A DNA stretch of 64,000 bases from contig CM027378.1 in NCBI GenBank assembly GCA_015680905.1, positions 71,639,501-71,703,500 on the forward strand. Direction: 5' to 3'. Positions 19,142 through 61,159 of the stretch are shown in pieces (the first letter of the stretch is position 1; each line of letters starts with the position of its first letter). The notes beneath the pieces were generated by a model. The model was not told the DNA's origin. It saw nothing but the letters and a program-made list of their open reading frames with translations, and ran no database searches. The stretch is from Coptis chinensis (Eukaryota; Streptophyta; Magnoliopsida; Ranunculales; Ranunculaceae). The position numbers were made by a program, and so were the translations under genes.

Positions 19142-20062
19142 TCCAGCAACCAATATATATACAAAACATACGATCATATCTCCCCACCACCAACGCATAT
19201 AAAAAACACAGGTAAACTTTTGGTTCTCAATTATTTTTTTTTGACATACATGTTGAATCAAATATTACATATCTAATTAAATTCCTCTAAATTTATTCAT
19301 TGCATAGAATAGAAGATATTGAACTTCATTGGATTGTCAATATGGATCTACAACAATCAGAAGAGGTACAATATTTAATAATAAGTATGTATTAATTTTT
19401 TTCCTAATGTGTATTACTACTATTTGAACACAACACTTTTTCTTGGTTATCTTATGTGAAAAACAGAAAAGGATCACTATGGAGATGAGGTAAGGACAAT
19501 ATTCAAGAAGAATTAAAGTGTCATTCAAACCCATGCTAGAAGATATTATGAGACAACTCAATTTCAATCCACCTATTTACGAAAATTATTTGAAGAACGG
19601 AATGTTTAATGCAAGTGTCCAGGTGAGCAACGATTTACTGGGTATTACAAATATTAGTGGAGAACCATCACGATCACTCGAAGAGTTTGAAAACAGTGCA
19701 GCAAGAACCACAATTAGATTCAAAAGTAAAGTGTATATTTTCGAAGTTGGTGACTATAACTTGGAGAAATTGAAAGAAAGCCAAAAGTTCGTAAAAGAAC
19801 AACAAGACATAATAGAATTTCTCGAGAAATCAATGAATCTCATTAAATTTCATATTATTTTTCATATAAGGTATATATGACTAACTTCTAAAACTTTAGG
19901 TTGGAAGAATTGATGAAAATCGCGGAATATCCAGTATAGATATTAAAAGTATTATTTTAGACAATACCAAACTCATGATCAAGGAGAATAAAGAACGATA
20001 CTCGAGTCTCAACAGATTCAATAAAAAGTTAAACAAATTCAAAATTCATATTTGTTTGGTTA
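19142..20062 (+). CDS. Small-protein family copy A, first unit: dsRBD-like domain plus coiled coil
   Basis: A leader exon ending AAAAAACACAG/GTAAAC (19211), then exon 19309-19365 with the first ATG (MDLQQSEE, donor GTACAA), then a frame from about 19512. The domain reads MLEDIMRQLNFNPPIYENYL, GMFNASVQVSNDLLG and FENSAARTTIRF followed by YIFEVGDYNLEKLKES, then an acidic/basic coiled coil (KEQQDIIEFLEKSM). After an AG at 19900 it continues RIDENRGISS and LMIKENKERYSSLNRFNKKL. Helix - P-x-Y strand - strand - AA-containing helix is the layout of a double-stranded-RNA-binding domain. The family is not otherwise recognised and RNA binding is inference. A TAA lies upstream in the same frame at about 19490, so exon joining or decay is unclear. 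Confidence 0.5.
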
Positions 20063-20112
20063 ATTTTAATTTTTAAGTGTTTGTCTAACTATAAATTGAT
20101 TTATGAAATTAT

Positions 20113-20556
20113 GCAGCGAAATCAATTTTGAAAACTTATCACTCAAAACTTCAAAGATATGTTGATGTATTGCACCAAAATATTAAAGATGGACGACCCA
20201 GAATTTCATAACGAAATATTGGGAGAAAATCAATACAGATATCAAATATCAATTGACGTTCCAATCCGAATGTTTAACATCAAAGACAATCACCAATTCG
20301 AAGGAAATTCAACAGCAAGTCTAGAAGATTCAGCATCAAATAAAGCAATTGATTTTCTGCACATTGAGATAGGCTTTGAAGTAGTTGACTATAACTACGA
20401 ACAAATAGAAGAAATTTGCAACAAACTTGATATTGTAGAAAAAACCGACACACTTAGAAATTAGTGGATACAAATTCAGGAAGAAGAAATTAACAGTCTG
20501 AAAGAAGAGATTGAGTATCTAAAGACAATTATGAAGAGGGAATGGGAAAACAAATA
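20113..20556 (+). CDS. Small-protein family copy A, second unit
   Basis: Follows an ATGCAG acceptor at about 20116. The frame reads KMDDPEFHNEILGENQYRY, ISIDVPIRMFNIK, QFEGNSTASLEDSASNKAID and FLHIEIGFEVVDYNYEQIEE, then, after a TAG at 20462, a coiled coil EEEINSLKEEIEYLKTIMKR ending at TAG. The ending of the domain (A...AIDFL...FEV.DYNYE) matches the first unit (AA...I.F...FEV.DYNLE) and copies B and C. So copy A may encode two such domains in tandem or be two adjacent genes. The in-frame TAG between domain and coiled coil suggests decay or an unseen intron. Confidence 0.45.
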
Positions 20557-21243
20557 GTGGTTTTTAGAATTAGGTGAGTTATTGTTTTGTTGCTTTAAGT
20601 AATTATTTCATTCAAATATCTTTTTCACTTGAGGTTTTTTAATAATTCTACCTATCTTTGTCGCTATTATGCTTCATTTTCCACTACTTTTTGTTTTAGT
20701 ATAGTGCAAGTGGAAGTACTTATAACAAATGAAAGAATCCAGCTACTATTTTTCTCTGTAGGAAATAGTGCAAGTGTATGAAGTTCCACAATCTGGAGTA
20801 GTGCAAACAAGGCACTTCTCAATTTAATAGAACAATTTTTTTGAAGAGTGCAAAAATTAACATCATTTTCACAATTAATAACTCATAACAAAGAATCTAT
20901 ACTATTGCAAAGACAAACATAATGAATCATTACTAAAAATAACAATACACCAAAGAAGACAATCAATGGGTTAAAAGTAGATCAATTCAGTATCGCTAAC
21001 CTATTATACATTTCCACCTTCATTAATGACCAAGGTCAATTTATACACGCAATTAGTTCCAGTCAAACAAATTAAAAATCTTATTTCATGTTTCCTGATG
21101 TTCATGACCACATATATGCAGTGTTGCCTTCTCTACTAAGTTTGTAAACAGAAGTAATATGCAGTTGAAACCATTTTTGAACCCCACCATTCAGCAGCTC
21201 CATTCAAATTTAATTTTTTTTTCTATGAATGCCATCACAAAAT
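20557..21243. other. 3' flank of copy A
   Basis: Positions 20520-20690 match the 3' flank of copy B (49808-49879 and 50476-50575) nearly base for base, for example GAATGGGAAAACAAATAGT and GCTTTAAGTAATTATTTCAT. Similarity ends near TATTATGCTTCATT. The rest is AT-rich and unremarkable. Confidence 0.6.
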
Positions 21244-21395
21244 CTAAGTTACTTTGACACAGGCACGTGTATCTTTATCCGATACGGGTATATATGAAGT
21301 GTCAGGTATATTGCATACAATTTGTGTGTACGGCGTCTGACACAGACACATATCCGACACGGATTATTTTTAGAATATGGTGTCCATGTAACTTG
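21244..21395. repeat. Dispersed repeat of about 150 bp (CCGACACG-rich), copy 1
   Basis: Begins TTTGACACAGGCACGTGTAT and ends GTGTCCATGTAACTTGGCA; a related copy is at 63325-63475 (TTGACACGAATGCGTGTATC ... GTGTCCATGTAATATAGCA), and a short piece is at about 22075-22105. It contains tandem TATCCGATAC/TCCGACAC motifs with self-complementarity. Looks like a small non-coding interspersed element; its class is not determined. Confidence 0.6.
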
Positions 21396-21712
21396 GCACA
21401 AAATAAGTTACTATAAAAGATATCTCCAGGAAGAACGGATATAGGATTAAAACAACTAAACATAGCAACTAGGTTAAGATTTACGATGGTACTGAACAAG
21501 GCGTGTATACAAATTCACTACACGAGGCAGACACTTCATGTAATAAGAAAGGCAATAGGGGTGGTGGTAAAATTACAAGCACTGTGAAACCTTTTAAAAG
21601 AAACCATAACCTATCATGGGTAAGGAAAAAAAAATCACATAATCTAATATTTAGAGAGCTTTGCCCAGCCATGTACCTACCCAGAAGTAAACAAAAAACA
21701 AACCCAGCATAG

Positions 21713-22010
21713 CCTCCCCCTTCCTCCCAACAAGGGAAAACAAAGGAATAAAAGATACTACTCTTTCCCTCCAATGTCTGACATGAAATCATGGTTGAAG
21801 ACTGAGCCAGAAAGGATACCCTTCTAGGCAGCAACCGAATAGTTTAGGTAAAGTTGGGTCCCCCTTCCCACCAACAAGGGAAAATAATGGAATAAAAGAC
21901 TCTACTCTTTCCCTCCAACGTCTGACATGAAATCATTGGTTGATGACTGCGCCATAAAGATACCTTTCCAGGCACCACAACTAAATAGTTTAGGTAAAGT
22001 TGGGTCCCTA
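21713..22010. repeat. Tandem duplication of about 145 bp
   Basis: Two adjacent copies of a block running from CCCCCTTCC(T)CCCAACAAGGGAAAA through CTCTTTCCCTCCAAYGTCTGACATGAAATCAT to AATAGTTTAGGTAAAGTTGGGTCCC, the first ending about 21862 and the second about 22010. No coding similarity. Confidence 0.8.
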
Positions 22011-22188
22011 ACCAAAACCACAGAACACGACGAGATAGCACAGAGGTTGAAATCTAAAGATGAAAAGTGTATGACACTTTAACACGCTGACACGGGTTCA
22101 TATTTGTGATCAGACCAGAATTAAATGAGTTTCCTGGGATACTTAACAAAGCTAAGGCACACAGTCATAACGAGGAACTCAAAAGAAG

Positions 22189-22308
22189 AAAAATCACTTA
22201 CAGAAAGACTCCTCATGAGAAGAAATTCCACTTCCTCAATAGACAACTTAGTGTGCTCAGCAATGACACTTAATGGAATAGTTCGGTCCTCCGAGGGTCA
22301 GCTGCAAC
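22189..22308 (-). pseudogene. RPN9: RPN9 (26S proteasome lid subunit, PSMD13) exon
   Basis: One exon read leftwards after a TTGCAG acceptor: PSEDRTIPLSVIAEHTKLSI then EEVEFLLMRSLS and a GTAAGT donor. This is the start of the PCI winged-helix region of the non-ATPase proteasome subunit 13, a structural lid component (family knowledge). A TGA sits directly before PSED in this frame. The following exon, expected to read HLIEGIIDQVEGTVHVSW, is not found to the left. Isolated exon next to an unrelated phosphatase fragment. Confidence 0.8.
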
Positions 22309-22717
22309 AAGGAAATCCAGGATCAGATTCACCAGTTTTTTACCAAATAGGAGCACAATATATAACCAAATAGAACTGCTAATACTAATGTTGGTTCTCA
22401 TCTTCATGCTACTGAAAGAAAGAAAGAGAATATGTTTCTTTTTTTTTTGCTAAAAAAAAAATAACCTTCACATATGTCGCTGATATTATAGAACAAATTA
22501 TATAACAAATTATAGTTGAACAACTTCAAAATTTTAAAGACTTATTACTGATGGATGAATTGACCTCATCAAAAAGCTTTTAACTTTTGAAAATTTTGTT
22601 AAAAGCACCTGAAGTAGTGATAATTTACACTACCCCACAGGGTTAGACAACAGCATTCCCTACCCATTTTTCAGGTGCCCAAAGAACAATAGAACTTCTA
22701 TGCATCGATTTTCAATC

Positions 22718-23128
22718 CTATGTCCAAAAAGAAGAAGGGATTCCATGTTCTTGAAACCACTCATGCATATGAAACTTTTCATGGAGCACAGACCTTACAT
22801 CTTTATGCAGTGATAGTTGTCTGAGCAGAGGAAGTATAGTAGGACTTCCGAGAGCTGAAATGAACAGGAACAGGAGAAGTATGGATTATGAATTAGTTGA
22901 CAATCATGCAGTTTTGAAGCATTGGTGTAAAAGTTATTTGGCATAGTCCACGGTTCAAAATGTTGTAGCTCATAATACCTAATCATCGTAAGGCTGTCCT
23001 GCTGAAAATGGAACACATGGTATTCCGTTCAGTGGTTGCAATAAGAAACTGAATGGGTTATTATCAACGATAACAGTTCGGCAGAGATTCTTTGATAGAC
23101 ATGAGAGATCCTTCACATGCTCCCAATA
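22718..23128 (-). pseudogene. Small CTD-phosphatase-like protein (SCP/TIM50 type), last exons
   Basis: Read leftwards, exon about 23128-22987 encodes HVKDLSCLSKNLCRTVIVD then NNPFSFLLQPLNGIPCVPFS and AGQPYDD. After an intron, exon about 22857-22718 encodes RQLSLHKDVRSVLHEKFHMH and EWFQEHGIP to a TAG. This is the C-terminal half of the plant HAD-superfamily FCP1-like small phosphatase (V-I-V-D-N-x-P is its third HAD motif). The catalytic DLDET-type motif lies upstream and is absent. A frame change occurs near the start of the second exon (LSEVLLY versus LRQLSL) and near the end. Same strand as RPN9 but unrelated. Confidence 0.8.
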
Positions 23129-23521
23129 CTGCATGTGATGTATACACCAGCAAGTTTTATAAAATACCAAAAGAAGGTACAAACCTTTCAGCTTAAGCAG
23201 TCAAACATCAGAGATGCTAAATTTTCACCAATTTTATAATCACAAAGTGATCCACTTGAATAGGCCTAAACAGAAATTGTAGATACCATCACTAACCTAT
23301 ACACTACAAAACCTAAAAGCACTAAAGTTTAATTTTGTGATTTGATTCATACATGTGTCGGGAACTGGAAAATCTGAATACCTTGAGATCTATAAAAAAA
23401 AAATGCATTTGCTGAGAAATGTTTTTAAACTAGCTTATTTCAGCATAAAGAAAATTTCATTAGCTACAAAAGAAATAAAGTGGGACAAAGCATCGCAGAT
23501 AAAACAACAGCATACCCAAAG
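23129..23521. other. Spacer, nothing recognised
   Basis: Non-coding, AT-rich. Possibly intron of the phosphatase-like gene at its left end; ends with ACCCAAAG, the left target duplication of the next element. Confidence 0.35.
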
Positions 23522-24011
23522 CAATGTTTTGAAAACTGAACCGGTGATCGAACCGATTTTTTGTTAAAATGGTTCAACCAGGTTCAACCATGGTTCAACT
23601 TGGTCGGACCGATTGATGTTTATTTAACAAATTTTTTAATAATTACAATAATAAAATGAATAAATATATGTTTTAATTCAATATTAATTGGTATTATATA
23701 TCAAAATAAATTTATTATACAAAAAATACATAGTAGTATGTTGGTTTGGAGTTTGGATTATCTTGTTTAGGTGTTAGGTTTAACTCCCCACATTATCAAT
23801 TTTTCAAAAAAAAAAAAAAAAAAAAAATTATATAAGGGTGATCCGGTTTAGAGCTGAACCGGTTCACATGGTTCACCTGTTCAACCACGGTTTAAGCTTA
23901 GACCGAGGGTCCAACCATAAACTCAAGTTTTAACTGAACCGAACCGAAAATTTACCGATTCCAGTCGGACCCCGGTTCAACCACCGGTCTGGTCCGATTT
24001 TCTAAACATTG
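23522..24011. mobile_element. hAT-type MITE, 490 bp
   Basis: Terminal inverted repeats CAATGTTTTGAAAA (left) and TTTTCTAAACATTG (right), with 8-bp flanks ACCCAAAG (23514-23521) and ACCCAAAC (24012-24019), a target duplication with one mismatch, as expected for hAT. The interior is full of GGTTCAACC/GAACCGG motifs in inverted arrangement and has no transposase. An A-run occurs at about 23806-23827. Confidence 0.82.
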
Positions 24012-24019
24012 ACCCAAAC

Positions 24020-24689
24020 ATAACAACATGGTGCAACCCAAGAACCAGGACAAGAAAGACAAATATGAAATCCTCAATTAAGCCCAAAACAACATTTCAA
24101 GTAACCAACCTCAAAATATGACAGCCTCCAACCAAAACACAAACAGGGTGTCAATCAACCCATCCCACAAATTCGACCAAAACAAACAAAATTCCTTTAT
24201 AAGACATCCACTAGAATCACTGGACACCCAATCAGGTCAAGAATAAAAGAATTTTTTTACACCTTATTCAACATGTTTTCTTTATTACACTTACGTATGG
24301 CATATAAGACAAGATGTATCTGCAAAGGTCTCTCTCTCGATCTACGATAGTGTCAGTGTCAGGTAAGACAAAACTAAAAGAGTCTAGCTGTTGTAAAAAA
24401 CCAGAACAAAAATAGAAGGAGATTTTGAAACTACCCAATCAGGACTAGGTATCTGATAAACAGCAGCTAGAAACACCCACCTAAAATGTTTACAGTTTTA
24501 AAAGTATATTTTGGATCCTAAAATCCACCAGTCCAAAGAGCTCTATCTCTAAATGAAAAGTTTACAGGTCGAAAACCTCAGGTGACTAAATCTTTTTGAT
24601 TCTTTAAGTTACGGTGCTTGGGTGATACTTATAGAATGGTTATGTGATCTTCAGTTTATCAACTCTTAAAAGAGGATCCTAAAGGGCAA
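24020..24689. other. Spacer, nothing recognised
   Basis: Non-coding between the MITE and the Helitron fragment. No structure seen beyond short AT-rich runs. Confidence 0.35.
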
Positions 24690-25310
24690 GGGTACATGAG
24701 CCAATAAAAATTAATCTTACAAGTGAAGACATATGGACCACCACCATTGTTAATTGCATAGTCTATTTTTCCACCCATTGATGTGAAAGCAAAGATCGAA
24801 TTATATGATCTTATGTTTTCAATAAAATGAGTGCTTCTTGGTCCCCTTAATTCAAGCAGATCCTTTAAGAATTGTGGAGGATTCTTCAATAGTGGAAGTT
24901 GTATCTTTCCCACTTGACAACAAATGGAGAATGTAGGAAGTTGTCTCTTTTGTTTCTTGTTGTTCCTTTCTTCATTCCAGAGTATAGCTCCACAGAAAGA
25001 ACAAATTTTGTTGGGTTCACCAAAGTCCCATAGTTCTATATAAAGAAAAAAAAGATAAGAAAAAGTATATAAGTTATTAATCGAAATATTCAACGTGTTT
25101 AATTTAATACTTACCAATATCGCGAGTACTTTTGCGAAGTGGAATGCTGTCAATTAAATCAAAATCTGACAAATTAAAATTTGTTGAATTGTTGTTGATG
25201 TTCTGAAAATCAACATCAGTAGTGATGCTTCTTTTCCTATTCACGGTTTCTTCTCTGTGCATAGACTGAACTTTTCGAATATTTGAAATTCTGGTAAGCA
25301 CGTGAATCAT
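24690..25310 (-). pseudogene. Second Helitron: N-terminal exons of its Rep/helicase
   Basis: Read leftwards, exon 25310-25116 encodes HREETVNRKRSITT and ends TRDI/GTAAGT. Exon about 25037-24690 encodes LWDFGEPNKICSFCGAILW, KIQLPLLKNPPQFLKDLLEL and IRSYNSIFAFTSMGGKID, then NNGGGPYVF. This is the N-terminal C-x2-C zinc region and following Helitron_like_N segment of Helitron proteins, which precedes the HUH Rep domain. That segment is missing from the plus-strand Helitron at 2.7 kb, but orientation and distance make it a separate copy. No frame continues left of 24659. Confidence 0.85.
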
Positions 25311-25436
25311 TTATAACCAACTCTCTTTGTGGGAGAAGATTGCATCTTAGCCTTGATTTACGAACCTGTTTATTCTTCTCCTTGGCCATAGGGATTTCTT
25401 ATAATAAAGATAAAAAAAGGCAGAATTATAATTGTA

Positions 25437-25600
25437 AGGGACACTTAATATAGAGTAGTTAGATTGAACACATACAAAAGACGTACTTTTTTATCTTTAT
25501 TATAATTGTAAGGGACACTTAATATAGAGTAGTTAGATTGAACACATACAAAAGAAGTACTCAGATATATAGAGTAGTTAGATTGAACACAAAAAAAAAA
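25437..25600. repeat. Short direct repeats
   Basis: TTGTAAGGGACACTTAATAT with AGAGTAGTTAGATTGAACAC occurs at 25433-25476 and 25507-25550, and the second half again at 25571-25590. Non-coding. Confidence 0.8.
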
Positions 25601-25689
25601 AAAATTAATCATGCACTCACAAAAAAATCTAATATAAAGAAAAGAAGTACTCAGATATATAATTACATGCACATACAAAAAAATTATGA

Positions 25690-26145
25690 ATTAAATCATG
25701 TAATTTAAAATTTTAACATTACCTTCATGTAAAGAAACGACGACAGAAGTGAATCCAGAAGGCAAACTCTAATATAAGGTTCTGTTAACAATAGCAAACA
25801 AAGTTTTGTTAGAAAATAAAGTTTTATTCAGAGTTTCGTATTTAAGTACACTGAACACAGAATATCTCCCTGGTCATGCAATTTAAAAGATTGATTCAGA
25901 TAGCTTAGAAGCCAGAAGGTCAAAGTAAATTCAGGACCCAATTGCAAACTTTAGGAAAACCAAATCTACAAATTGACATTAAGACATTTGATACCTGCTG
26001 TTAGGCCATGCATGGCAACTAACAGTCTCACTATCTTGTACTCTGACTTAGACACCAGTGCCTAAGACAATATACCTTCACGTATTAATTGATATATTAT
26101 ATTCAATCAGTATGCGTTGAGGGTATCGAGAGATAGAGCAAAGAT
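25690..26145. other. Spacer, nothing recognised
   Basis: AT-rich, no coding similarity or repeats seen. It could contain the 5' flank of the minus-strand Helitron fragment. Confidence 0.35.
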
Positions 26146-26148
26146 ATT

Positions 26149-26420
26149 ACAAATTGCATGATCCTTTCCAATCAAGACACACTACTTGATGATGTAGGGA
26201 GGCATTACTACATATTTGGAGAGGCAGCATCCCTTTATGAAGTTAGTTTTCCATCTAGATTTTGGAAGCCTTCACCAACTCAATCTGTTACAAAAGGACC
26301 AAGTGCTATCACAGCACAACGCAGGGTATCGGAAGCACAGGACACGGGCTTTACCTTTTTGGGTTGTAGGATCACTGGCGTCCTTTCCACGCTTATATTA
26401 GCTTATAACATTACATTCCA
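26149..26420 (+). pseudogene. Pectinesterase fragment
   Basis: The frame reads NCMILSNQDTLLDDVGRHYY, then IFGEAASLYE, then AITAQRRVSEAQDTGFTFLG and CRITGVLST. These are the QDTL...GRHY, DFIFG and ITAQ.R......GF.F..C.I.G elements of the right-handed beta-helix pectin methylesterases that de-esterify cell-wall pectin (family knowledge). The residues between GRHYY and IFGE that carry one catalytic aspartate (VDFIFG) are lost, as is the LGRPW part after about 26400. A flavin-monooxygenase piece follows within 60-280 bp. Captured or decayed fragment. Confidence 0.75.
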
Positions 26421-26477
26421 TTACTACCAAGTGTTTTCACAGTATAGAAAGATGAGCACTTCTTCATTGACACCATC

Positions 26478-26884
26478 TTCCATCTACTCACCTTGTCGAG
26501 AAACATCACCAACACTCCAACAAACACTCCAATTTTGGCTTGGGGTGATGGCCATTTTTGTGGTACCAAAGATACTATCACTAAACAGCCCAACACTCAA
26601 GTGAACAACAATACATTTGGAGTTGGGCTGGAACAAAAGAAAGCACTCAAAGGACTAATAAGTGACTACTTATAGAGTTTAGCACATTTATATATGTCCG
26701 GGATGAGGTGTAGGCTAGCACATGTTCGTAAGGGGACTTTTAAGTTACCTAGAATAAAAAAGATGGAAAAAGATGTCCTGCAGTGGGAAAAGCACATGAA
26801 GCAGTGCACTGGCGAAGTTCTATCGGTGATCTTGCATAAACTTAGTGCAGATATGGTACAATGATTAGTTGTGGGCCGTCGATA
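26478..26884. repeat. Duplicated segment, copy 1 (flavin-monooxygenase piece)
   Basis: About 400 bp from TGACACCATCTTCCATCTAC to ATGGTACAATGATTAGTTGTG is present again at 38526-38929 in the same orientation with only a few differences. Left and right flanks of the two copies differ. No terminal inverted repeats or target duplication are evident, so the mechanism is unclear. Confidence 0.9.
26693..26875 (+). pseudogene. Plant flavin-containing monooxygenase-like fragment, copy 1
   Basis: The frame reads GMRCRLAHVRKGTFKLPRIK then MEKDVLQWEKHMKQCTGE. It resembles the C-terminal M/I-E-x-D...W...MK region of plant FMO-type enzymes. One extra A after GGCGA breaks the frame here relative to the second copy, where the similarity continues further. 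The function of this subfamily is not fixed. Lies inside the duplicated segment and next to the pectinesterase piece. Confidence 0.5.
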
Positions 26885-27371
26885 AATGAGTTTTATGGAC
26901 GACTAATGGCCGTGGTTTTGGGTTTAAAACAACAGCTTCGCACTGTCTAGAGCTGCGTCCTGCTCGATCAAAAAACGAAATTGAATAGTTTCAATCCCTT
27001 ATTGCAGACGGCTAATGGCAGTAGAGTATTTGAAAATCTAATTTATTGGATGCACCTGCTGCTTCAATATGATTGGCTACCCAAATAATTTAAATTCAAA
27101 CTACACTATATTAAGAAACCATAATCAAACTTAAGTACCAAAACATCTTTATATTTATCATTCCATCCAAAATGTTTACATTGCAATACCATATACTATA
27201 AAACTTGAAGTTTGACAAAATACCAAAATATTTGAACTCAATCTTGTTGCTCAAGTATTCAATAACTAGCTAGAAACACTATCCAAAGACCAAAAAACAA
27301 CTATGTACTTGGATTTACAAAGCACGACAAAAGAAGATAAGTTTTTGTCGATTTAAAAGCTTCATCGATCA

Positions 27372-27569
27372 ATGAAAAACCACGTAATTTTTTGGCCAAG
27401 TAATCACGTCACCAAGCACGATATCTCCAAGTCTTCCATCTCCTTCATACAACGGTGCAAAATCATCGAGTATCTCATCGATTCGGACATTATACGAACT
27501 TGGAAGTGTCGTTAAATAGGTGCAGACTTCTCCAAGTGCAACCACAGTCTTTGTTATGAAACTCTTCAA
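27372..27569 (-). pseudogene. Possible CACTA accessory-protein C-terminus
   Basis: Frame read leftwards: MKSFITKTVVALGEVCTYL, SYNVRIDEILDDFAPLYEGD and GDIVLGDVITWPKNYVVFH, then stop. The ending, (D)xIGxVVxWPxxLV-like, resembles the C-terminal end of proteins encoded beside TNP2 in plant CACTA elements, but the match is short and from memory. No CACTA ends could be assigned around it. Treat as tentative. Confidence 0.25.
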
Positions 27570-27599
27570 GTGACAAGTTGTAGATTGAGGTCGGATATT

Positions 27600-28966
27600 G
27601 CGGGAATCATCCTGAACTGGTGATTGTTGTATTTCCTAAAAAAAAAACAAGGAAATTAATGTAGCGTTAGAGACTTTAAATAGCTTACTGAACACAAGAA
27701 CCAAAAGCACCCAAGAGTTCAATCATTGATGAAATGATCTTCAGTATGCATTTCCAAAAGTTTGTCACTTAATGTTCACTATAATACATGGCAAGAAATG
27801 TTATCAGGAATATAACAGTTAGGATTGAGCTGTTGGCAGTTAATAACTATGGAACATCTACCTTTAAAATATACTAGTACATGTGCATGTATCGTTAGGA
27901 TATTTTCCATCCTTCCCTAACCAAAACTAACTTCATCTCATCAATTTCGACGGACAGATTATTTTCAGTCTTTGTTTAGGAAAAGGATTTATCAGAGAAC
28001 TTCTTTGTATTACTTTCTGGCACAAGGAATTGAGACAGAAACTAGTTAACAACTTCACTGTCACAACAAAAACATCAAACCATGGGAACTCTCATCCAGT
28101 TTGAACTGCTAGATCGATTCCTCCTCTCATCTAGATAGAAGAGATCTTGAATATTGAAGTACAACTGTAGAAGATAACTAGAATTCCACTGAGTTACTTC
28201 TCATGCTAAACACAGCCTAAAACTTCTATTCAACAACAGAAGACCTGCATTTTCACATAGTTCTGCATTATTGCATTGAGAAACATTCGACTCGCAGCAG
28301 TGTGGAAATTGGAGAGGTCTTAGGTGGCAATTTTTTTTTTTTTCACAAATGCTGGTTTGAGACACTCAGACCAAGAGTTCCAAGACCTCTGAAATATTTT
28401 TGACACCTCTGAAATAATGCAAAACCTTTGAAATAATGCAAGACCTCTGTAATATTTTTCACAAATGCTTCTCTGAAATTATACTTCTTGAAAATAATAC
28501 AGACAGTATATATACTCAGACCAGCATCGCAACTAATTTAAACTCAAACCAGCTTATGGAAATTGGAGAGGCAACTACAATTTACAGCCAACCATTGGAA
28601 ACCGGAGAGGACCGCAGTATTAGGTGCACAATAACTCCACACTAGAGGATCACCTAGCAACACAAGCAAAGAGACAAAAGAAGAAAGACAAGCCCTGAAG
28701 AACTCCTATGTGAAAGCTACCTCGATAAAAACGTAAAACTCCATTCTAAGTTTCTAACCCGATTGCCCCATGAGCCTCTTCCAAACATATGAAAGATCCG
28801 CATCATAAAACTACTTTGGTGAACAAGCAATTGATCAATCGCTTCTCTTTGTAATTGATATCATTTCATAGAGACCAATCTACGAATAAAAAGACTGCAG
28901 CAGCTTAAGATGTTTTGTGATTCAAACAACCATTCATGGTTATCTAAAAAGTTATCCGGAAAGTTT
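27600..28966. other. Spacer, nothing recognised
   Basis: Non-coding. A small cluster of near repeats (CCTCTGAAATA...) lies at 28385-28455. No family similarity on either strand. Ends at the left edge of the Ty1/copia element. Confidence 0.4.
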
Positions 28967-29577: not shown

Positions 29578-29691
29578 TTCTCCACCTCGGTGAGGTTTTA
29601 ACACATAAAACCGAGCCGAACACATCCAGCAAGAGCACATCCATCCAGAACTCGCAGTCAACCGCCCCGAAGGGGCCATGCCCACAAAGGG

Positions 29692-47646: not shown

Positions 47647-47651
47647 GCAAT

Positions 47652-48357: not shown

Positions 48358-48879
48358 ATGGATTACGCCAGAGTTATTCAAGCTTCAAGAAGAACAATAC
48401 TAAATACCGTACTACTATCACTTGGTATTTATGTAGAACCTATATACAACACCATTTTAGATGGAGACAAATTTACTTCAAATGTGACTATACAAGTATA
48501 AGTTTTAGGCACAAATGAAGAAATGACTGAAACTTTAACAGGAACTCCCGAAGTAACACAGTTGAAATTAGAAAATACAGCTGCTGAAGAAGCACTTAGT
48601 TATTTGCATTATATCAATGAATTTGAAATCAGAGACTTCAATTTCAAAGAATTATTGATGAGATGTAGTCAAGTAGAAGAAGCAACAATCCAGATAAACA
48701 ATCTTGAAGAGACAAATCATTATCTAAGTGTACTACTACAATCTCTTCAAGTTCACCACATTGGCGTTCAGCAACAATTAATTGATTTGGAGAAACAGAA
48801 CGTTGATTTGAAGAAAGCTGGTACAAAATATGCGGAAATAGTTAACATTATAAAAGACTCTAATGATCGCAACAGCTAA
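48358..48879 (+). CDS. Small-protein family copy B: dsRBD-like domain plus coiled coil
   Basis: After TATTGCAGAGAA the frame starts MDYARVIQASRRTILNTVLL, SLGIYVEPIYNTILDGDKFT and SNVTIQV, has one in-frame TAA at about 48498, then continues LKLENTAAEEALSYL with YINEFEIRDFNFKELLMRCS. A long coiled coil follows (EEATIQINNLEETNHY, HHIGVQQQLIDLEKQN) to a TAA at 48877. The skeleton (E-P-I-Y...F...V...AA..AL.YL...FE.RDFN) is that of copies A and C. About 173 residues if the TAA were read through. With that stop it is likely a pseudogene, though the ATG downstream (MTETLTGTPEV) leaves 118 residues open. Function unknown; RNA binding would be inference from the fold pattern. Confidence 0.55.
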
Positions 48880-51303: not shown

Positions 51304-54122
51304 TCCAAGTCTCCATGAATTTCTGTCTCTCCTCGTCCTTCCTTCATCTTGTACCTTGTTCCTTGTATCTTGATTTTTACATCTCCAATGATTCCATGAA
51401 TGAGCTCTTGTGATTGTCGGTGCTGATTCTTAAAGATTCTATTGTTCCTTTCTTGCCATATCCAAGTAGAAGAAACGCATTCACCATCGGCTTTTAGTGA
51501 GTCTTGTTGCCCACCTTTCCCATTACTTGTTCGCAGCACCCACTGGAGCTCCTCCTGCCATGTCTGTGCAGTTTGCCTTCTATAACCTGCGAAGTATAAG
51601 ATATTTTGCCATATATACAGGGAGAAATTACAATAGAAGAATAAGTGTTGCTCTGTTTCATCCTCTTTCCAACAGAGAACACATAATTTCGATCGAACCA
51701 CCTTGAACTCAAACAACTTGCTCAAGGTTTTCATAATTTGTTTCATGGCCATCCACCCAATGAAAGAATGTTTGGGTATACGGTTCTGGAACCAAATTAA
51801 CTTATGCCAGTCATTAGATTGTAGCTTCCTCCTCAGAGATTGGTACGTGTCTTTCAGCTGATATTCTCCTTGTAAGGAATCAGTCCATACCACTCTATCG
51901 TTTCCTCTTCCCAGTGTTATCTCTTCTCTCATTTCTGTCACAATCTCTCTACATTCATTCTCCATATGTGGTGGAATGCTCCATTCGCCCTCATTTATAA
52001 AATTTGCAACCGGTGCCTTCATATGGCATAAGGTGTTATACGTATAATTTTGCGGGAAAGCTTGTTTTAAAATCCCTCTCGGATGCCATGGATCTTGCCA
52101 AAATAACGTATCTCGTCCATTCCCAATCTGATGCACTGCTATTCCTTTCCCTTCCACTCTACTGTTAAGGATTGCTCTCCATCCCCAAGAACTGTTATGC
52201 GGTACCTTCATGCTCCAGAAATTCTTGGTCTTGATCAAATTCTTCCAGACCCATGCTACCCATAAGCTATCCTTCCTTGATATCAAATGCCATAAATGTT
52301 TAAGGTTTGCTGCCTTATTCACTATTCTCACATTCCTTATCCCTAATCCTCCTTCATCATATGGGTAGCATACTTCTTCCCATCCTACCAAAGCATGTGA
52401 TTGAAGGCAATCTGGACCAGTCCATAGAAAATTCCTACAAATGCTCTCTATCATATCCAACACACTCATAGGTAGTATATAAGTCGATAACCAGTAGTTA
52501 CTCAAATTATTTAGTACAGCCTTGAGTAGTTGTAGCCTTCCCGCATATGACAAAAGTTTCCCCCTCCAGCTCTGAACCTTCTTTGTAAACTTATCAATGA
52601 GAGGCAGACAGTTCTCATGAGTTAACATTGTAGTGATCAATGGCATTCCCAGATACTTTACTGGCAATTCTCCACTCGTAAATTGCATAACTTCTCTGAT
52701 ATCATTACGTAATGGCTCCTCTATCCCTGAAAAGAATAACTGACTCTTCTGAATGTTCACTTCTAACCCACTGCATTCCTTGAATATCTGAAGATTGTTG
52801 TTTAAACATTGAGCTGTTCTCAGGTCTCCATACATAAATGCTAGCAAATCATCCGCAAAAGATAAGTGGGTGATTAGAGGGTCTGTACATTTATAATGCA
52901 GCTTAAACTGCCCTTCTCTGACACTATGATGCATAATCTCTGTCAATAGTTCCATGACCATTACAAACAAATAAGGCGACATCGGATCTCCTTGTCTTAT
53001 CCCTCTCTTCCCCTTGAAATATCCATACGGTGCTCCATTAATCATGATAGAGTAAAAAGGAGTTTCAATACATACTTTAATCCATGCAATGAATTCCTCG
53101 GGCATGCCATATCTCCTTAGAGCAAAGATCACCGCTTCCCATCTAACCAAGTCATATGCCTTCTTCAAGTCTATCTTTGCTGCACATCTAGGTGGTGAGT
53201 AATTCCTGTGATAGTTATGCAAAAGTTCATGTGATAAAAGTATGTTATCTTGTATCCTTCTACCTGGTACAAAGGCTGACTGATTATTGGATACAATCAA
53301 ATTAATGAAGTCCTTCATTCTAGATGTTAGAACCTTTCAGATGCATTTATAGACCACATTGCAAAGACGAATTGGCCTATAATCCCCAGTCTCTGGGATT
53401 TGTACCTTTGGAATTAGAGTTATGCATGTCGAGTTCACTTCTCCTAACATTTTCCCTGACCTGAAAAAACTCTGCACTGCTCTCACCACATCATTTCCTA
53501 CTATATTCCATGCTGATTTGAAGAACAGTGACGAGAACCCATCATTACCCGGTGCTTTGTCATTGTCAATCCTTGATAAAGCTTCTATGATCTCATCTCG
53601 CGTTACAGGCGGTACAGTTTTCCTTAATTGTTCCTGCATCTCTTCAGTGATCCTGTACCTTGGCTGTATATTTTTAAAGACATCAAAATTCACTTCCGGC
53701 AAGTTCTCGGGTTTGTAAACTTTCTCATAATATCTAGCACATTCTTCTCCAATCTGATTTACATCATCTATCAAATTCCTTTGTTCATTCAAGAGGCAGG
53801 TAATCTTATTTGTGTTTCTTCTTGCTTGAACTGTTTTGAAAAAATAAGCCGTGTTGCTATCCCCAAGGACAATGGACTGATCTCTAGATTTCTGTCTATG
53901 GAACTCTTCCTCAGTAACAGCCGCCTTAACATGCATGTGAATGGCTGATTTCTCCTCTTTGATGAGCGAAACATTTAGTGGGTCTATCTGTAGCTTTGTT
54001 TGTACATCTAAGAGCTCCTTCTTGGTTATTTCAGCCCTTGTAACCACATTCCCTATTCTCTGCCTATTCCATACAATCAAATCACCCTTCACTTGTTTCA
54101 ATTTTCTCATTAGGATGTACAT
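51285..54122 (-). pseudogene. LINE reverse transcriptase and zf-RVT
   Basis: Read leftwards from 54122: MYILMRKLKQVKGDLIVWNR (linker), KAPGNDGFSSLFFKSAW (palm start), CITLIPKV..P...DYRPI, QSAFVPGRRIQDNILLSHEL, AKIDLKKAYDLVRWEAV, RGIRQGDPMSPYLFVMVMEL, LSFADDLLAF (catalytic FADD), VKYLGMPL, and a C-terminal zf-RVT region LCVLCWKEDETEQHLFFYC. One in-frame TGA (after CNVVYKCI, about 53323) splits an otherwise open frame of over 900 residues, so decay is slight. The endonuclease is absent because of 5' truncation. Copies RNA into DNA at the target site. Confidence 0.93.
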
Positions 54123-54158
54123 AGGGTTTCCTTTAAATTCAGTTCCCTATACTAACAA

Positions 54159-54511
54159 TTTTGGCTTTACACATATTTACTTTGGGGTCATTTCTTGCAT
54201 TCTAGCTAGGAAGAAACTTTAAATCTTCAGCCAGCCATACCAAACCATAATAGTTCCCATAGCATGAAGATATGCTCCTTGAATCATATAAATTTTCTAT
54301 TTTCTTTCTTATAATGAAACACATTTACAACCAATTCAACATTTTATTTAACATCATCAAATCAGCCACTCAGCCCAGTTTTACACATAATACAATCTCA
54401 CAATTGCATAGACACTAAATTGCATATAGTGGTGTTGGTATGTGGATGTTCAACTATTCGATTGGTTGGGCAGACCACATAATAAAGTAGCAAGGCATCC
54501 AGTGCCCTTCT
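54159..54511. other. Flank right of the LINE, nothing recognised
   Basis: Continues the pre-insertion sequence after the LINE's right target duplication. AT-rich, no gene until the KCS fragment. Confidence 0.4.
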
Positions 54512-55771
54512 TCATACTAGGAAGCATAAATCTATATGGCCCTCCTCCATGCATGGATTTGGTGGTAACCTCACGAATGCCTCAGGGAAGTATGTTGACT
54601 CTCCCAACCCAGATTTATTCAAGATATTCTTCTGAAACTGCAAACTTTCTTCTAAAAATTCCCCCAATAGTTTTGATCGATCCATGAAGGTGTCGTGGCT
54701 ACATTTCAATGCATCTCTAGGTTTGTAGTAGGGGTGTGCACGGGTCGGTTCGGATCGGTTTTGGAGTAAAACCGAACACCGAACCGACCTTGTCGGTTTA
54801 TGTATTACACGATCCGATCCGAACCGATACTCTAGTCTTAACTGATCCGAAACTGATCCGACTGTCTTCCCACCTAACTGATGTCCAATCCTATCCGATT
54901 GTTTCACAGTATTAACTGATATTAACTGAAATCAACCCAAAAAATCTGTGTTGTCTCAATTGATTTTGTGTTTTAGAGTTTTTTTATTTCATATTCGAGA
55001 TGGGTTCAAGTTTGATGAAAATAATAAGATTTGAAGGTCTGGTTTGTTTGAATATGTCGTACTGGATATTTGGTAGAGACGGGGGTATAAAGGGAATTAT
55101 GTCCTCTTTTATTTGGGTTGTTACGTGGTCAAAAAGTGAATTTAAAAGAGGGGGCACGTGCATACTTATTATTTTCTGCAGTACTTAAAAAGTGAATTTA
55201 AAAGAGGGGGCACGTGAATTCTTGTTACGTGGTCAAAAAGTGAATTTAAAAGAGGGGGCAAGTATGCTCTTCATACGTGGGGACAAATAGGGTAGAGTAT
55301 TCATGCAACAAATTTGTTGGTATACGTGCTTTATTCGTTGGTTTTTGTACGTAACAAACACATAGCGGGTCGGGTCGGATTATTTCGGGTTTAATAAATA
55401 TAAACCGACAACTGAACCGACTTAGTCGGTTTTGTAAATTTCTCAACCAATCCAAACCGATACTAAATAGATGACCGCCCATATGACTCAGTTCGGATCA
55501 GGTTGGTCGGTTTTTTCGGTTATGGCGGATTTATGCACACCCCTAGTTTGTAGCATGCGAAGTCGACTAGAAAAACCTTGCGAGAATGACTTATGTAAAA
55601 CTTTAAAGAAAAGGAGATAATGAACATCGAAAAAAAAAACACATTTGTAAAACTAAGATAATCGACATGGAATAAGAGAAAGCCAATATAACAGCTAAAG
55701 CTCGATGGGGAAAATGAAAGGGCCATAATTTCACGAGTGGAGGAATGAAGAAAGACCAACAAGGGGAACAA
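54512..55771 (-). pseudogene. 3-ketoacyl-CoA synthase (KCS) fragment, split by a hAT element
   Basis: Read leftwards: an N-terminal hydrophobic segment (about 55771-55600, FFFSMFIISFSLKF), then SRKVFLVDFACYK (55591-55554). The hAT insert follows, then PRDALKCSHDTFMDRSKLLG, EESLQFQKNILNKSGLGEST and YFPEAFVRLPPNPCMEEGH, and a stop at 54512. VYLVDFACYKP...TFMDRS...F..+IL.+SGLGE.TY.PEA...PPNPCM is the N-terminal signature of plant KCS enzymes that elongate very-long-chain fatty acids in the ER (family knowledge). The catalytic Cys-His-Asn core is beyond the break and absent. Removing the hAT and one 8-bp duplication joins YK to PRDA in frame. Confidence 0.87.
54729..55545. mobile_element. Non-autonomous hAT element, 817 bp, inside the KCS pseudogene
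   Basis: Ends TAGGGGTGTGCA and TGCACACCCCTA, flanked by identical 8-bp copies of GTTTGTAG (54721-54728 and 55546-55553). The subterminal parts are inverted repeats rich in TCGGTT/AACCGA. The centre has no transposase and contains three copies of a GTGAATTTAAAAGAGGGGGC phrase (about 55136, 55192 and 55241). The perfect duplication implies a fairly recent insertion. Confidence 0.95.
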
Positions 55772-56910
55772 CTGTCGATACTCGATCTTAAGTCTCTAAC
55801 TCAAAAAATAATGAATATGAACTGAGTGTAGAAGCTATTAAAGTCACAGTTGTATACATAACACATCAAGATAAAAAAGCCAGAGAAAATTGTAGAGTCG
55901 AATGCATCTACTTTGTGCTTATATAGCAGGAGGCATTATAGAAAAATTCCTACCAGTTATTAAGTTGGATTTAAGCATATGGCATAGATACAAGTTATAT
56001 GCATCCACATGGTCTTGAGTTTGAGGCAAGTACAATGTCGACGATACACATTAATGAATTTTGGATTAACACTCTGAAGGAATTTAGTCAAGAAGGAAAC
56101 TCAGAAAACAGAAGTGTTGCTATCCAACCAGTCCAACCCTCTTCCACACATTCAAATCTAATAGATAGACAACAGTTTAAATAAAAAGGCTTCCTTGCAT
56201 AGTTTTTAATATACATTAGATACAATCCACAACTAGAAAAAGAAGCTAGAGCAGGAATGAGTACGAGACTGAAAAATAGGATCCATCAAACTCTTGCACC
56301 AAGTTCTTGATTCCCAGAGGTCATGCTTTCTGAATCCTTCCTACAAGGTAATAATAATGGCTTGCGCTTTATAAAGTTCATAAGGCTGACAAGGAGAGAA
56401 AGGCAGAGTTATGCGGGTCTTTCAGTAGGTTACGTGGAATACATATTTTGCTCAAAGACAACATTTCTTGGATCATTTGCCTTGCTTGGATCGATTGTAC
56501 CTCAGGATGTAGGTGTAGTGAAGAAGTTGCGAAAAGCTGGATGGAAACTCAGAAAACAGAAGTGTTGCTATCCAACAAGTACAACCCTCTTCCACACATT
56601 CAAATCCAACGTATACTACACAAAGACGAAATAAAGTTTCAAGAGACTATCAGAAAAATAAAAACTCAATATTATCTCCAATGTCTAATTCTTTGCTACA
56701 CCAACCCATCCAACCTTTTCTCACATCTTCCTCACGTTCAGTTTCCTCATCCCAACTCACCAAATGCTCTCCACTAGTAGAACCTCCAGTTTTCTCTTAT
56801 TTTCTTAAAATGATTTATATTATGAGGTATGTACGACTAATCCACTAGAATGATGGAGATCCATTTTATCCAATGGAATTAGAGTATAGGGAATATGTTT
56901 GTAAATTGTT
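55554..56910. other. Region between KCS and PLD pieces (outside the KCS exon)
   Basis: After the KCS N-terminus (to 55771) no gene is recognised. A 70-bp phrase starting GGAAACTCAGAAAACAGAAG at 56096 and ending CTTCCACACATTCAAATC recurs at 56545-56610, a direct repeat about 450 bp apart. Confidence 0.5.
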
Positions 56911-57945
56911 ATGTGTGCTTATATAATATCTTGGAATCAGAGTGATAGCGCAAGGCATAGTCAAAATCCTTCTGCATATGTTTCTTCACCTTCGTTAGAG
57001 AATTCACAACATGGTCAGTTTTTACAGATTGTGCCAGTTCGATCGTCTAAAAGCTCTTTGAAGGTTATGCTCTTACATGGGAATTTGGATATTTGGGTCT
57101 ATGAGGTGAAAAACCTACCCAACATGGATATGTTTCATAAGACCTTAACCGATATGTTTGTGAAACGGCTTGGGAATGTTACAAACAAAATTGAAGGGCA
57201 TGTATCAAAGGTAACCAGTGATCCCTATGTCACTGTTTTAGTGGCCAATGCTGTCGTCGGCAGAAGTTACGTTATTAGTAATAACGATAACCCAGTTTGG
57301 ACACAACATTTTAGTGTTCCTATTGTACATCATGCTGCAGAAGCACATTTTATTGTTAAGGACAGTGATATTGTGGGGTCCCAAGATATTGCAGTCGTGG
57401 CAATCCCAGTAGAGAATATAATATCAGGAAACAAAATTGAATGATCTTTTCCAATTCTTAATATGTCAAACAAGAAGCCATGTAAGCCTGGAGCTGTATT
57501 GAAGATATCTATTCAATACATGCCAATTGAGAGACTGACTGCTTACCATCATGGAGTTGGGTGCGGTCCCAATTACACAGGAGTTCTAGGTACATACTTC
57601 CCTCAGGCAAGGAGGGAAGCTAACATTATACCAAGATGCCCATGTTCCTGACGGTTGCCTTCCCGCTTTGAAGCTCGAAGGTGGGGCGCCTTATGAGCAT
57701 GGGAAATGTTGGCATGACATATTCAATGCAGTTAGTCAAGCCCGACGCTTGATTTATATTACTGGTTGGTTAGTGTAGCACAAAGTTCGATTAGTTCGAG
57801 ATGTTGCTTCTGGATCAGATGTCGCTCTAGAGGATTTTCTCAAGTCCAAGTCGTAGGAAGGTGTGAGGGTGCTGCTTTTGATATGGGATGATCTTACTTC
57901 AAGAAGCATCTTGGGTTATCAAACAGTAAGATTTACGAGCTCTTC
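56911..57945 (+). pseudogene. Phospholipase D beta/gamma, 5' part
   Basis: Reads SSLKVMLLHGNLDIWVYEVK, NLPNMDMFHKTLTDMF, VTSDPYVTVLVANAVVGRSY, NPVWTQHFSVPIVHHAAEAH and FIVKDSDIVGSQDIAVVAIP: the C2 calcium/phospholipid-binding domain. Then, after a TGA at 57442, KPCKPGAVLKISIQYMPIER, LTAYHHGVGCGPNYTGVLGT and, shifted, LYQDAHVPDGCLPALKLEGG, CWHDIFNAVSQARRLIYITG and EGVRVLLLIWDDLTSRSILG. This is the first exon(s) of a plant C2-PLD that makes phosphatidic acid. Two or more stops and one frame change. Both HKD catalytic motifs lie further on and are absent, so the piece is truncated near 57930. Confidence 0.9.
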
Positions 57946-58660
57946 TTGGATTCATGATGCTGCTGTATTTTATATTCAATATATTTTTTTTATAAACTCT
58001 TTATAGTAGAGATTGTTGCTTACAACCAAACCCAAGAAACGTCAACAAAATCAAACCGAACCCCACACACACACACACACACACAAAATACATATTCCTG
58101 AATGCAATGAAGAATTAGTAGCAGGTTTAGTAAAAGTTACCCTAGATTGGTAGTGTAAAATTTTAAATAACTGTTGCATATGAAGAAGAATGGTGTATAA
58201 CCTGATCTCATTTTGTGTTTATGCATTTGTGCATGGATTCTTTCTTCTTTCCTTTCCTTTTATTTTCTTTAGATATTTTTGTATGTCACAAGAATGTATT
58301 ATCTTACACGGACCTTTCATAAAGTGTTTATCAACTTTGTACCCAAACTTCACTGCCTGAGGAAGATACTAAGTGAGCTCAAAATAAATTGTTGAGGCTT
58401 TAGAATCGCATTGGTTATGAGGTCATTTAAAGATGACGCATACTCCAATTTTACTTCCAGTACCAAATTAAACCAATGTGATTTGTTTTAATATCCTGGA
58501 CTAGCAAGGAAGTATACGGTCTAATTCCCAGGCCTACATAAGGACTTCTTCTACCAAAAGAATCCTATTAATACTTAACTTCCTAAGCAAACCTATCTAA
58601 TAAGAATCCTATTAATACTAAACTTCTAATGACATAAAAAAACCTAATCAATTAACCTAA
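57946..58660. other. Spacer with short CA repeat
   Basis: Non-coding. (CA)n at 58063-58085 and an imperfect duplication of AATCCTATTAATACTTAACTTCT-like sequence at 58560-58626. No gene seen. Confidence 0.4.
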
Positions 58661-58858
58661 ACAAACCTATATATATAAAAAACCAATGATCCTCCTAACA
58701 CAAAACAAAAAACACAGGTAATTAAACTTTCAGTTTTTTCTTTTATTTTGATTTACATTAGTTTTACATATATAACTGAGTTCCTTTTCTTTTCTTCATT
58801 GCATATAATAGAAGATATTCAATCAAGGCTTCAGAAAGAGTTAACAAAAATGGATAAG
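58661..58858 (+). promoter_or_regulatory. TATA-like site and two leader exons of small-protein copy C
   Basis: TATATATATAAAAAACCAATG at about 58665, then a leader ending AAAAAACACAG/GTAATT (58717). After an intron, TTCATTGCATATAATAGAAGATATTC leads to ATGGATAAG/GTAAAC (58850-58858). The same order and wording occur in copy A: CAATATATATAC, AAAAAACACAG/GTAAAC, TTCATTGCATAGAATAGAAGATATTG, ATGGATC... Shared leader sequence outside the coding part argues for common descent of whole transcription units. Confidence 0.6.
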
Positions 58859-58969
58859 GTAAACTATTTCTTTTCCAGTATCTTATTTTATAATTTTGTT
58901 GATTTCTCTTTTATGATTCAACTTATGATTAAAAAAAAATTAAATATTAAAGTTTAAACACATGAGATA

Positions 58970-60660
58970 TTAGCGTAAGCCTGTAATGGTTTGTTTGTTT
59001 TTTTTTTTTTTTTTTTAATTCAAATTATATTGAACTATATTGAACTTAAGACCTGTATTAGTGTAACAACCACTCATTATTAACTGTTCCTGGAACCCCT
59101 CTTACCCCTCCTCTTTATAATTCTTCTCAATATTCTGAAATCAGTGGGACTGTGGGAGAGACAAGTCTCGAGTTGAAGCTATTGAGTCAATCAATCCAAC
59201 ACCACAATTATTTTATCTTAAAGAACTTCAACATCAAATCTTCCATTATATAATTTTATATACTTAGCAACATATTACCGCTAAAAGTTTATCTGAAAAT
59301 AGAACAAAAGAACAACCTATTCAGCAATCCCAGTGTAAGCAAGTGAAAGGTCCTTTTGAACCAGAATGACTTTCTCATCCAAAATGTCTCTGTCCCGAAG
59401 TTTGTGTGCATGCTTTTCCAATTTGAATAGTAGTTTTGCCTCGATCTTTTTTAGATGCCTTTGCCTTGATGCTCTCAACCTACATCAAGTTAAAATGTCT
59501 TACAAAGATTATTCATGTATTGAACTTCTTATGTTGCTTTGTCTCTTTAGCTATAGAACCTACCTCTTCTTTTAGTCAAATCTCAGCCAACACCAACTTT
59601 TGATTAGGTTCAACAAGACGAGCTTGAACAACAGATTTCTCAGCTAGCTCAACCTTAGACTTTCCACAACACCCCTTAAAGTTTCCTCTAATTCCTTGGT
59701 ATGTATTGTTTCATTGAGCAACTCTTTCAAATACCAGAAATAAGCAATTTCTACATGATTGAACCATATCTTTTAGGTTGAATTTTAGTTTTCTTCTAGA
59801 GATATATCTCCTTGGTCCAAAAAGTGTTGTTAAAGGTTATGTTAAAAGGGGGTAGGTTGTCCTTTATGAACTTAAATGAAAGAGCTTATAGGCTTTAGGG
59901 AGATGAAATCTTCTGTACATAACCTATGAAATTAACATACTATTTAATTTATGATGTCTAAAGTGATTGGTCCCAACTATTTACAGACTTATACAGTAAT
60001 ATCCCGGTCGATCAATAACGAAGATAATGATAATTAAAACATGAAAAGTAAAAAACGCCCAAATCAATGTATCCAGAAATCTCAAATAAGTTTATTTTCT
60101 GTGTGGAAGTTTTCCGAAAATGGTGTTGGGAACTTCGATATGATGAAATTATATGAAATATAAGAGCAGGCCTAAGGAGAACATATTAACTTTCAAATCA
60201 TCCATATGCTTTAAAATTTATTTCAAGGGGGAAAGGTGTGTGTGTATAGGGTACAATATAGTATATATATGTATGTAGAGTATAAGAAAATGCTTGTTTT
60301 TATATCAAAATTATGTAATGCTGGAACCAAGTTTAGTGGTATATATATACCTGCTTAGAGTCTCCCACAATATCGGTTATAACTCCATATCCATCTTCCA
60401 TGACATTTCTCCTTCCTCTCCTACTGGCCACAAAAAAAAAATTCCTTCCGTCTCAAACTCAGGAAAAGTTCTGCAGGGAAGTAGCACCTATTCACTATAG
60501 CCCACTTTGACACACATTTAGTATCCTCCCACAAAGCCTGCAAAACAGTAAAAGATCCATCAATAAAAGAAAACCTAAAATAATGCATGTTCTAAAAATA
60601 CCAAATTACTATAAGCCCTGACAATGGTGAGACTGCATATTTCTGGATAATATAAACTAA
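58970..60660. other. Long intron or inserted DNA in copy C
   Basis: Between the leader exons and the main exon of copy C. Contains a coiled-coil exon pair of another gene on the minus strand (59340-59720) and short AT-rich repeats; no mobile-element ends were identified. Confidence 0.4.
59340..59730 (-). pseudogene. Unidentified coiled-coil gene, two exon-like pieces
   Basis: Read leftwards, about 59725-59580 encodes YLKELLNETIHTKELEETLR with an AEKSVVQARLV... continuation in another frame. About 59475-59340 encodes RASRQRHLKKIEAKLLFKLE and KHAHKLRDRDILDEKVILVQ. Strongly charged, heptad-like, but not assigned to a family. Neither piece has a start or end codon in context. Reported as a likely captured fragment only. 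Confidence 0.3.
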
Positions 60661-60676
60661 TGTAATTTTTAAAATG

Positions 60677-61159
60677 CAGCTCATGGAGTATGAAACCAAA
60701 CATAATATTTTACTCAAGATAGCGTTGAGGGAAATTCTAATCAAGGAAAAAATTCAAGGAGAACCAGTTTACATATCAAAGATTGAAAACAACCAATACG
60801 CTGCAGATGTCATAATAGATTTGCCGATAATGAGAGAAATCTTCAAAAATCCAAATTATCCTATAAGCCAATCATTTCCGAAAACGTATCAAGCTAAGAA
60901 AGTGGACTCAAAAAATGCGGCTGCAAGAAACGTTATCCACTTTCTACAGCAGATATACAAATTTGAAGTTTTAGACGTCGACTACAAAGAAGTCATTACT
61001 AAACGTGAAGAGCTATAGGAAGCAAAGACTAGAGAAAAACAACTTCATCAATATATTGAAAACTTGAGAAACGAAAATGACTATTTGAAGTCAATAAATG
61101 AAGCAATTGCTTATAGGAGGACAAAATTTGGAAATGGACTACCTAAGCATCCCAAATAA
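60677..61159 (+). CDS. Small-protein family copy C: dsRBD-like domain plus coiled coil
   Basis: After an AATGCAG acceptor (60679) the frame reads MEYETKHNILLKIALREILI, QGEPVYISKIENNQYAADVI, IDLPIMREIFKNPNYPISQS and KKVDSKNAAARNVIHFLQQI, then YKFEVLDVDYKEVITKREEL. A TAG at 61016 is followed by coiled coil in frame: REKQLHQYIENLRNENDYLK and SINEAIAYRRTKFGNGLPK to TAA at 61157. The clearest family member. K-K-x-x-S-K-N-A-A-A-x-x-x-I-x-x-L matches the last helix of double-stranded-RNA-binding domains, and E-P-V-Y...Y...V fits strands 1-2 of that fold. The first-loop G-P-x-H residues are not evident. The TAG may be decay. Confidence 0.55.

Follow-up and report, generated by a model that had tools for sequence, protein, structure and literature searches.

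What are the small proteins whose genes recur among mobile-element and gene fragments in a 64,000-nucleotide stretch of the Coptis chinensis genome (C2:71639501-71703500; hereafter, the window), and what vehicle carries them? Inspection of the sequence and its open reading frames (ORFs) reveals, at three loci of the window, four stretches of related coding sequence: A1, A2, B and C. We lean, with slightly better than even confidence, towards the explanation that they belong to a large rolling-circle transposon, a Helitron, with genes for RepHel and an RPA-like protein and, in the same orientation, an array of no fewer than five small, diverged genes (A1, A2, B, C and D). The products of these five have predicted double-stranded RNA (dsRNA)-binding domain (dsRBD) folds and, on this view, would help the element to counter RNA silencing. 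The family, its predicted fold, its linkage to Helitron genes, the common strand, the dispersed copies and the selection on shared changes were all demonstrated by computation, and this suggests that a transposon may make its own tools to evade the RNA-silencing defence of the plant.

On sequence comparison, A1, A2, B and C are members of one protein family. When the genome (935.6 Mb, 116 contigs) was searched with B alone, without iteration, C loci were matched with E-values between 2.7e-12 and 1.1e-7 (for instance, C1:25515757 at 2.7e-12 and C7:19856920 at 3.0e-8), and a single-sequence search with C reached D at 1.5e-7. The latter, the fifth member, is located directly to the right of the window (L009 7600-7914) and was retrieved at 18 of the 20 C loci examined. 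Hidden Markov models (HMMs) that were each started from one of the four window genes and iterated over 52 loci and the window retrieved the other three within the window at 9.9e-39 to 4.9e-9, values that are not independent because the profiles contain the family members themselves. Identity between classes is only 20-31% across 26 aligned rows, in which the skeleton of a helix, a PxY strand, another strand, an AA helix, an FEVxDxN motif and a coiled coil is kept.

The family is dispersed and present in many copies, with matches to C on all nine large contigs. For each query the best 150 candidates were scored: of 723 for C, all listed matches being at 7.7e-25 or better; of 799 for B, the weakest at 1.1e-7; and of 480 for A1 and 262 for A2, where the weakest matches, at 0.005 and 0.2, respectively, are at chance level and some loci are split in two pieces. 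Among the stronger matches listed, 66 clusters contain at least two family matches inside 25 kb, and in 64 of these all listed matches are on a single strand. The gene order varies, being B-A1-A2-C in three clusters and A1-A2 before C without B in six others. Two pairs of long copies compared over kilobases were 94.7-95.0% and mostly 94.8-98.1% alike. Thus, the recurrent family with a common skeleton that the initial annotation described at three loci proved to be real and larger than proposed.

Each of the five genes is predicted to encode one dsRBD fold. AlphaFold models of intact copies of C (L017) and B (L032) display the alpha-beta-beta-beta-alpha topology of this fold followed by a long helix, and the top PDB matches of both models are dsRBDs, with DRB7.2 and DCL4 dsRBD2 in the lead; these two were solved with DRB4 and show 16-24% identity to the family. 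Where aligned rows have long frames, a coiled coil follows the domain. The structural models therefore agree with the dsRBD-like domain suggested at the outset; the assignment is based on the predicted fold and not on sequence, as searches of Pfam and PDB yielded weak or chance-level matches only.

Recurrent non-family ORFs (at least three loci) within about 4.7 kb of C were considered as a possible transposase, but the five that were scanned against Pfam gave no transposase match; therefore, the vehicle was sought farther away. Searches of the genome with the window DNA to the left of A1 led to loci adjacent to family members. Because the family is linked to RepHel and RPA loci, its vehicle looks like a Helitron. 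We collected 26 RepHel and 26 RPA loci related to those of the window, with pieces merged by eye. A family match is found within 50 kb of 20 of the 26 RepHel loci (the window's own excluded), the nearest one always downstream and on the same strand (20/20), and within 50 kb of 22 of the 26 RPA loci, all on the same strand and 20 downstream, compared with 2.5% of random places; this test included nine weaker points near Helitron loci that were added by hand. With a stricter list of 150 strong points that lacks these nine and a distance of 30 kb, the counts are 14 of 26 for RepHel, with all 14 downstream, and 14 of 26 for RPA, with 11 downstream; every one of these matches is on the same strand, and the random value is 0.9%. 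In the window itself, RepHel and the RPA-like gene are encoded upstream of the dsRBD-fold genes on the same strand, and both the Rep HUH motif and the PIF1-type helicase that characterize Helitrons are present: ORF 2695-2919 contains EFQKRGLPHAHILLFL and matches Helitron_like_N at 1.4e-6 (29.1 bits, cut-off 28.9). A Pfam scan of 12625-14955 detected no RPA family; the RPA-like label comes from an LWG motif and a Cys-rich stretch, recognized by eye, which we take to be typical of these proteins.

A copy at C5:91794691-91832238 is collinear with the window from position 1 through RepHel, RPA, A1, A2, B and C, with aligned DNA pieces 92-97% identical, so that RepHel, RPA and the dsRBD-fold genes were copied together. 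Window positions 1-2921 are homologous to other element copies, with alignments that start between 1 and 1902 and run to 2921. The unit spans leftward to at least position 1 and rightward beyond 64 kb, and since other copies align up to the edge of the window, the Helitron probably extends farther to the left. The idea that the family is cargo of mobile DNA is thus upheld by linkage, with a Helitron as the carrier.

Are these genes maintained by selection or simply carried along? Nonsynonymous (N) and synonymous (S) changes were counted against a consensus built for each gene from 8 to 20 copies, without a tree and leaving out stops. For changes shared by at least two copies, the N/S ratio relative to the neutral expectation is 0.46 for C, 0.44 for D, 0.41 for B, 0.31 for A1 and 0.33 for A2 (each p < 0.04); pooled over the five genes, 96 N and 73 S changes give 0.41 (p 1.5e-8). 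In shifted frames, shared changes give 0.98 (+1) and 1.32 (+2), with a range of 0.56-2.28 per gene, and singleton changes in the proper frame pool to 0.92. A simpler count without transition weighting yielded 0.22-0.35 for shared and 0.50-0.93 for singleton changes. Among the passengers, the PPR E+/DYW fragment (5 loci) has a ratio of 1.08 (12 N, 4 S), the GHMP-kinase fragment (7 loci) 0.68 (p 0.2) and the ORF at 61.4 kb (6 loci) 1.83, and the C2 fragment (2 loci) has zero shared changes. These data show purifying selection on shared changes in all five genes, unlike in shifted frames and in the captured PPR fragment. This is the pattern of genes that are needed while the element spreads and are nearly free to decay once it has inserted.

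Decay is evident in the window, where no intact copy is found: A1 has a stop upstream of the domain, A2 has stops, B is interrupted by an in-frame stop, and C has a stop at 61016 and a frame change in the tail. Elsewhere, 17 of the 20 C loci examined have an open frame of at least 159 amino acids from the same Met, and 5 of the 8 B loci have long open frames (the window's own loci among the 20 and the 8); these shares are not genome-wide rates because the loci were taken from top-ranked matches, with stop-free ones preferred. The leader exon of C, ATGGATAAG followed by a GT donor (58850-58860), is seen in 10 of the 20 C loci, including that of the window, and the AG acceptor of the intron in 19 of 20, so that, for C, the genomic sequence agrees with the leader exon noted initially.

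The initial annotation further pointed to a basic last helix in C. Window C reads KKVDSKNAAARN at this place. In most class C rows helix 2 starts with KKVDSEN, and the KK pair is present in 18 of 18 rows (the pattern used requires the first K); KKVD is the class C state, whereas SKN occurs in 2 of the 18 rows and ARN in the window copy only. Hence the KK pair stands as a class property, whereas the other basic residues are mostly private to the decayed window copy, and KK is missing from the rows displayed for D, B, A1 and A2. In what we take to be the canonical motif of dsRBDs, helix 2 starts with KKxxK. At the place of its third lysine, 48 of 56 rows, in which some loci figure twice, have Glu. 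This residue is not diagnostic because the canonical dsRBDs of L054, from the same genome, carry it too, and so it was dropped as a sign against RNA binding. For D, B, A1 and A2, we favour, by inference, putative protein-binding dsRBDs.

L054 itself (1-801; C4:49301900-49302700) represents a second dispersed dsRBD family, which presumably resembles HYL1/DRB1. It has 12 other nearly full-length copies that are 94-97% alike and further copies at 87-97%, and few of its places were seen near the Helitron family loci. Pfam dsrm has at least 150 matches in the genome, many of which are in genes with two domains (the open frames being about 130 and 91 amino acids long).

Several observations weigh against a Helitron-borne array of anti-silencing dsRBD-fold genes. 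DRB7.2 and DCL4 dsRBD2 resemble the family in structure only, and adjacent match rows are tied; Foldseek gave no match under 0.001 for the C or B models. Pfam dsrm (PF00035) remained below its curated cut-off, with matches in 2 of 26 members and a best E-value of 0.035 (L039 scores 14.9 bits, the cut-off being 23), and weak matches to MTR4_beta-barrel are both more numerous and better (10 of 26, best 0.0029). The sole dsRBD chain that the family profile matched in PDB, PKR, has an E-value of 1.5 and ranks below unrelated chains. The Glu in helix 2 does not discriminate, and class C retains KK. Among the singleton sets in shifted frames, that of B in frame +1 is also low (0.49, p 0.006), and 6 of 26 RepHel and 4 of 26 RPA loci have no family match within 50 kb among the matches listed. 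Helitrons have a 5' TC end and a 3' CTRR end with a hairpin; neither was recognized when the right ends of collinear pairs were read, the left end being outside the window, and it is by collinearity that the dsRBD-fold genes are placed inside the element. The upstream and downstream breakpoints considered as element ends resembled indels or junctions and showed no Helitron-like signals.

How do other explanations fare? The proteins might serve transposition rather than counter silencing, for example in assembly or in binding structured intermediates with RepHel and RPA, as their recurrent place behind RepHel on the same strand and their coiled-coil tails would suit; yet the closest structural matches are dsRBDs of the silencing pathway that were solved with DRB4, and the presence of several diverged paralogues in one element resembles diversification against a host target, which makes this role unlikely, if a serious contender. 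Passages of PMC6431247 describe the uptake of gene fragments by Helitrons, and captured fragments do sit in the same loci as the dsRBD-fold genes, so that a host dsRBD gene cluster could have been captured and carried like the PPR, GHMP-kinase and C2 fragments. Such passive carriage appears distinctly improbable given the selection on shared changes in all five genes, absent in the PPR passenger and in pooled shifted frames, and the retained splice sites, although the passenger control is small because the GHMP-kinase fragment gave 0.68 (p 0.2). Finally, a host family grown by segmental duplication, with Helitrons inserted nearby, would explain the several paralogues per array and the fact that Helitron ends were not found, but is very hard to reconcile with copies on all nine large contigs, with near-neutral singleton changes and with a nearest family match that is downstream on the same strand in 20 of the 20 RepHel loci having one within 50 kb.

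How might a Helitron-encoded dsRBD-fold array work? In its specific form, the proposal that a Helitron lineage evolved a diversified array that suppresses its own RNA silencing, through DRB4- or Dicer-type pairing or through dsRNA uptake, is tentative, and we hold it with less than even confidence. In Arabidopsis, DCL4 works with DRB4; the latter, together with DRB7.2 and DRB7.1, controls the small interfering RNA response to inverted repeats by sequestering dsRNA precursors processed by DCL3 (available part of PMC8138440, crediting Montavon 2017 and Tschopp 2017). A Helitron protein with a dsRBD fold and a multimerizing tail could be a rival partner or dsRNA binder. Most likely, the proteins would be decoys that use the dsRBD face to pair with a host DRB or Dicer protein, a DRB4-type one in the first place, and the coiled coil to multimerize; the second possibility is plain dsRNA sequestration, for which class C would be the foremost candidate.

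Table 1. Delineated features of the window (positions counted from its first nucleotide)
Feature	Position	Strand	Evidence
Left part of Helitron, Rep (HUH) end of RepHel	1..2921	+	ORF 2695-2919, Helitron_like_N; homology to other element copies
4.4-kb insertion inside RepHel, presumably CACTA-like	2922..7287	.	copies at C2:69.68, C2:70.61 and C6:60.61 Mb, 96-99% alike; C5 copy without insertion
RepHel, remainder of Rep and helicase, stop-broken	7288..10702	+	PIF1 2e-23 at 8720-9178
RPA-like gene of Helitron (presumed), several exons, degenerate	12625..14955	+	translation read by eye
A1, predicted dsRBD-fold gene, decayed	19494..19880	+	searches, HMM, alignment
A2, predicted dsRBD-fold gene, decayed	20132..20464	+	searches, HMM, alignment
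B, predicted dsRBD-fold gene, in-frame TAA at 48499-48501	48358..48879	+	searches, HMM; open copies L031-L035; fold of L032
Leader exon of C (MDK), then GT donor	58850..58858	+	present in 10/20 C loci, including the window's own
Insertion in C intron	59212..60140	.	L006 without insertion
C exon 2, predicted dsRBD-fold gene, decayed	60680..61159	+	searches, HMM; fold of L017

The CACTA-like label in Table 1 was given from the end sequences, which we take to be diagnostic. Between C and D, positions 61381-63347 contain a minus-strand kinase fragment, common to a few loci and presumably CIPK-like, which is probably a captured passenger. A repeat of about 764 bp at 24724-25487 has many copies, mostly at 93-98%, and its minus-strand ORF resembles the Rep start of another Helitron. 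To the right of D, collinear copies diverge, and in L017 the sequence at 8297-8353 leads into a further RepHel start in the same orientation, which may reflect a tandem or nested Helitron.

If the anti-silencing role is correct, this would be a transposon-encoded suppressor of RNA silencing in a plant and a new accessory gene class for Helitrons. Few cases are understood in detail in which plant transposons escape silencing, VANC being the one encountered in the portions of the literature surveyed, and a high-copy Helitron with selected dsRBD-fold genes offers named genes for direct tests of transposon-encoded suppression of dicing. Among the matches listed, titles and abstract beginnings mention no dsRBD gene borne by a transposon, whether Helitron or other, subscription journals being mostly outside the coverage. 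A 2026 review of gene capture (PMC13317346), in its available text, covers hypomethylation directed by VANC and Ulp1-carrying elements without known function, and the terms dsRNA and dsRBD do not appear in that text.

Like the element described here, plant Helitrons have a Rep HUH motif, a PIF1-type helicase, an RPA-like gene (here a putative one, recognized by eye), gene fragments and many copies; sections of PMC6431247 list RepHel with RPA and captured gene fragments, up to 39 kb in maize, and name RPA, an OTU-like protease and an AP endonuclease as accessory domains. The present element differs in carrying an array of predicted dsRBD-fold genes under selection. DRB7.2 and DCL4 dsRBD2 of Arabidopsis, whose structures were solved with DRB4, share with the family a single predicted dsRBD fold and are its best structural matches, but the family differs from them in its coiled-coil tail, its carriage by a transposon, the 16-24% identity and the lack of a sequence-level match. 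To VANC of the VANDAL elements the likeness is in the proposed logic only, a transposon-encoded protein directed against silencing: VANC, as described in the accessible part of PMC5735166, causes sequence-specific loss of methylation, whereas the Helitron proteins would employ a dsRBD fold and a putative RNA-silencing route.

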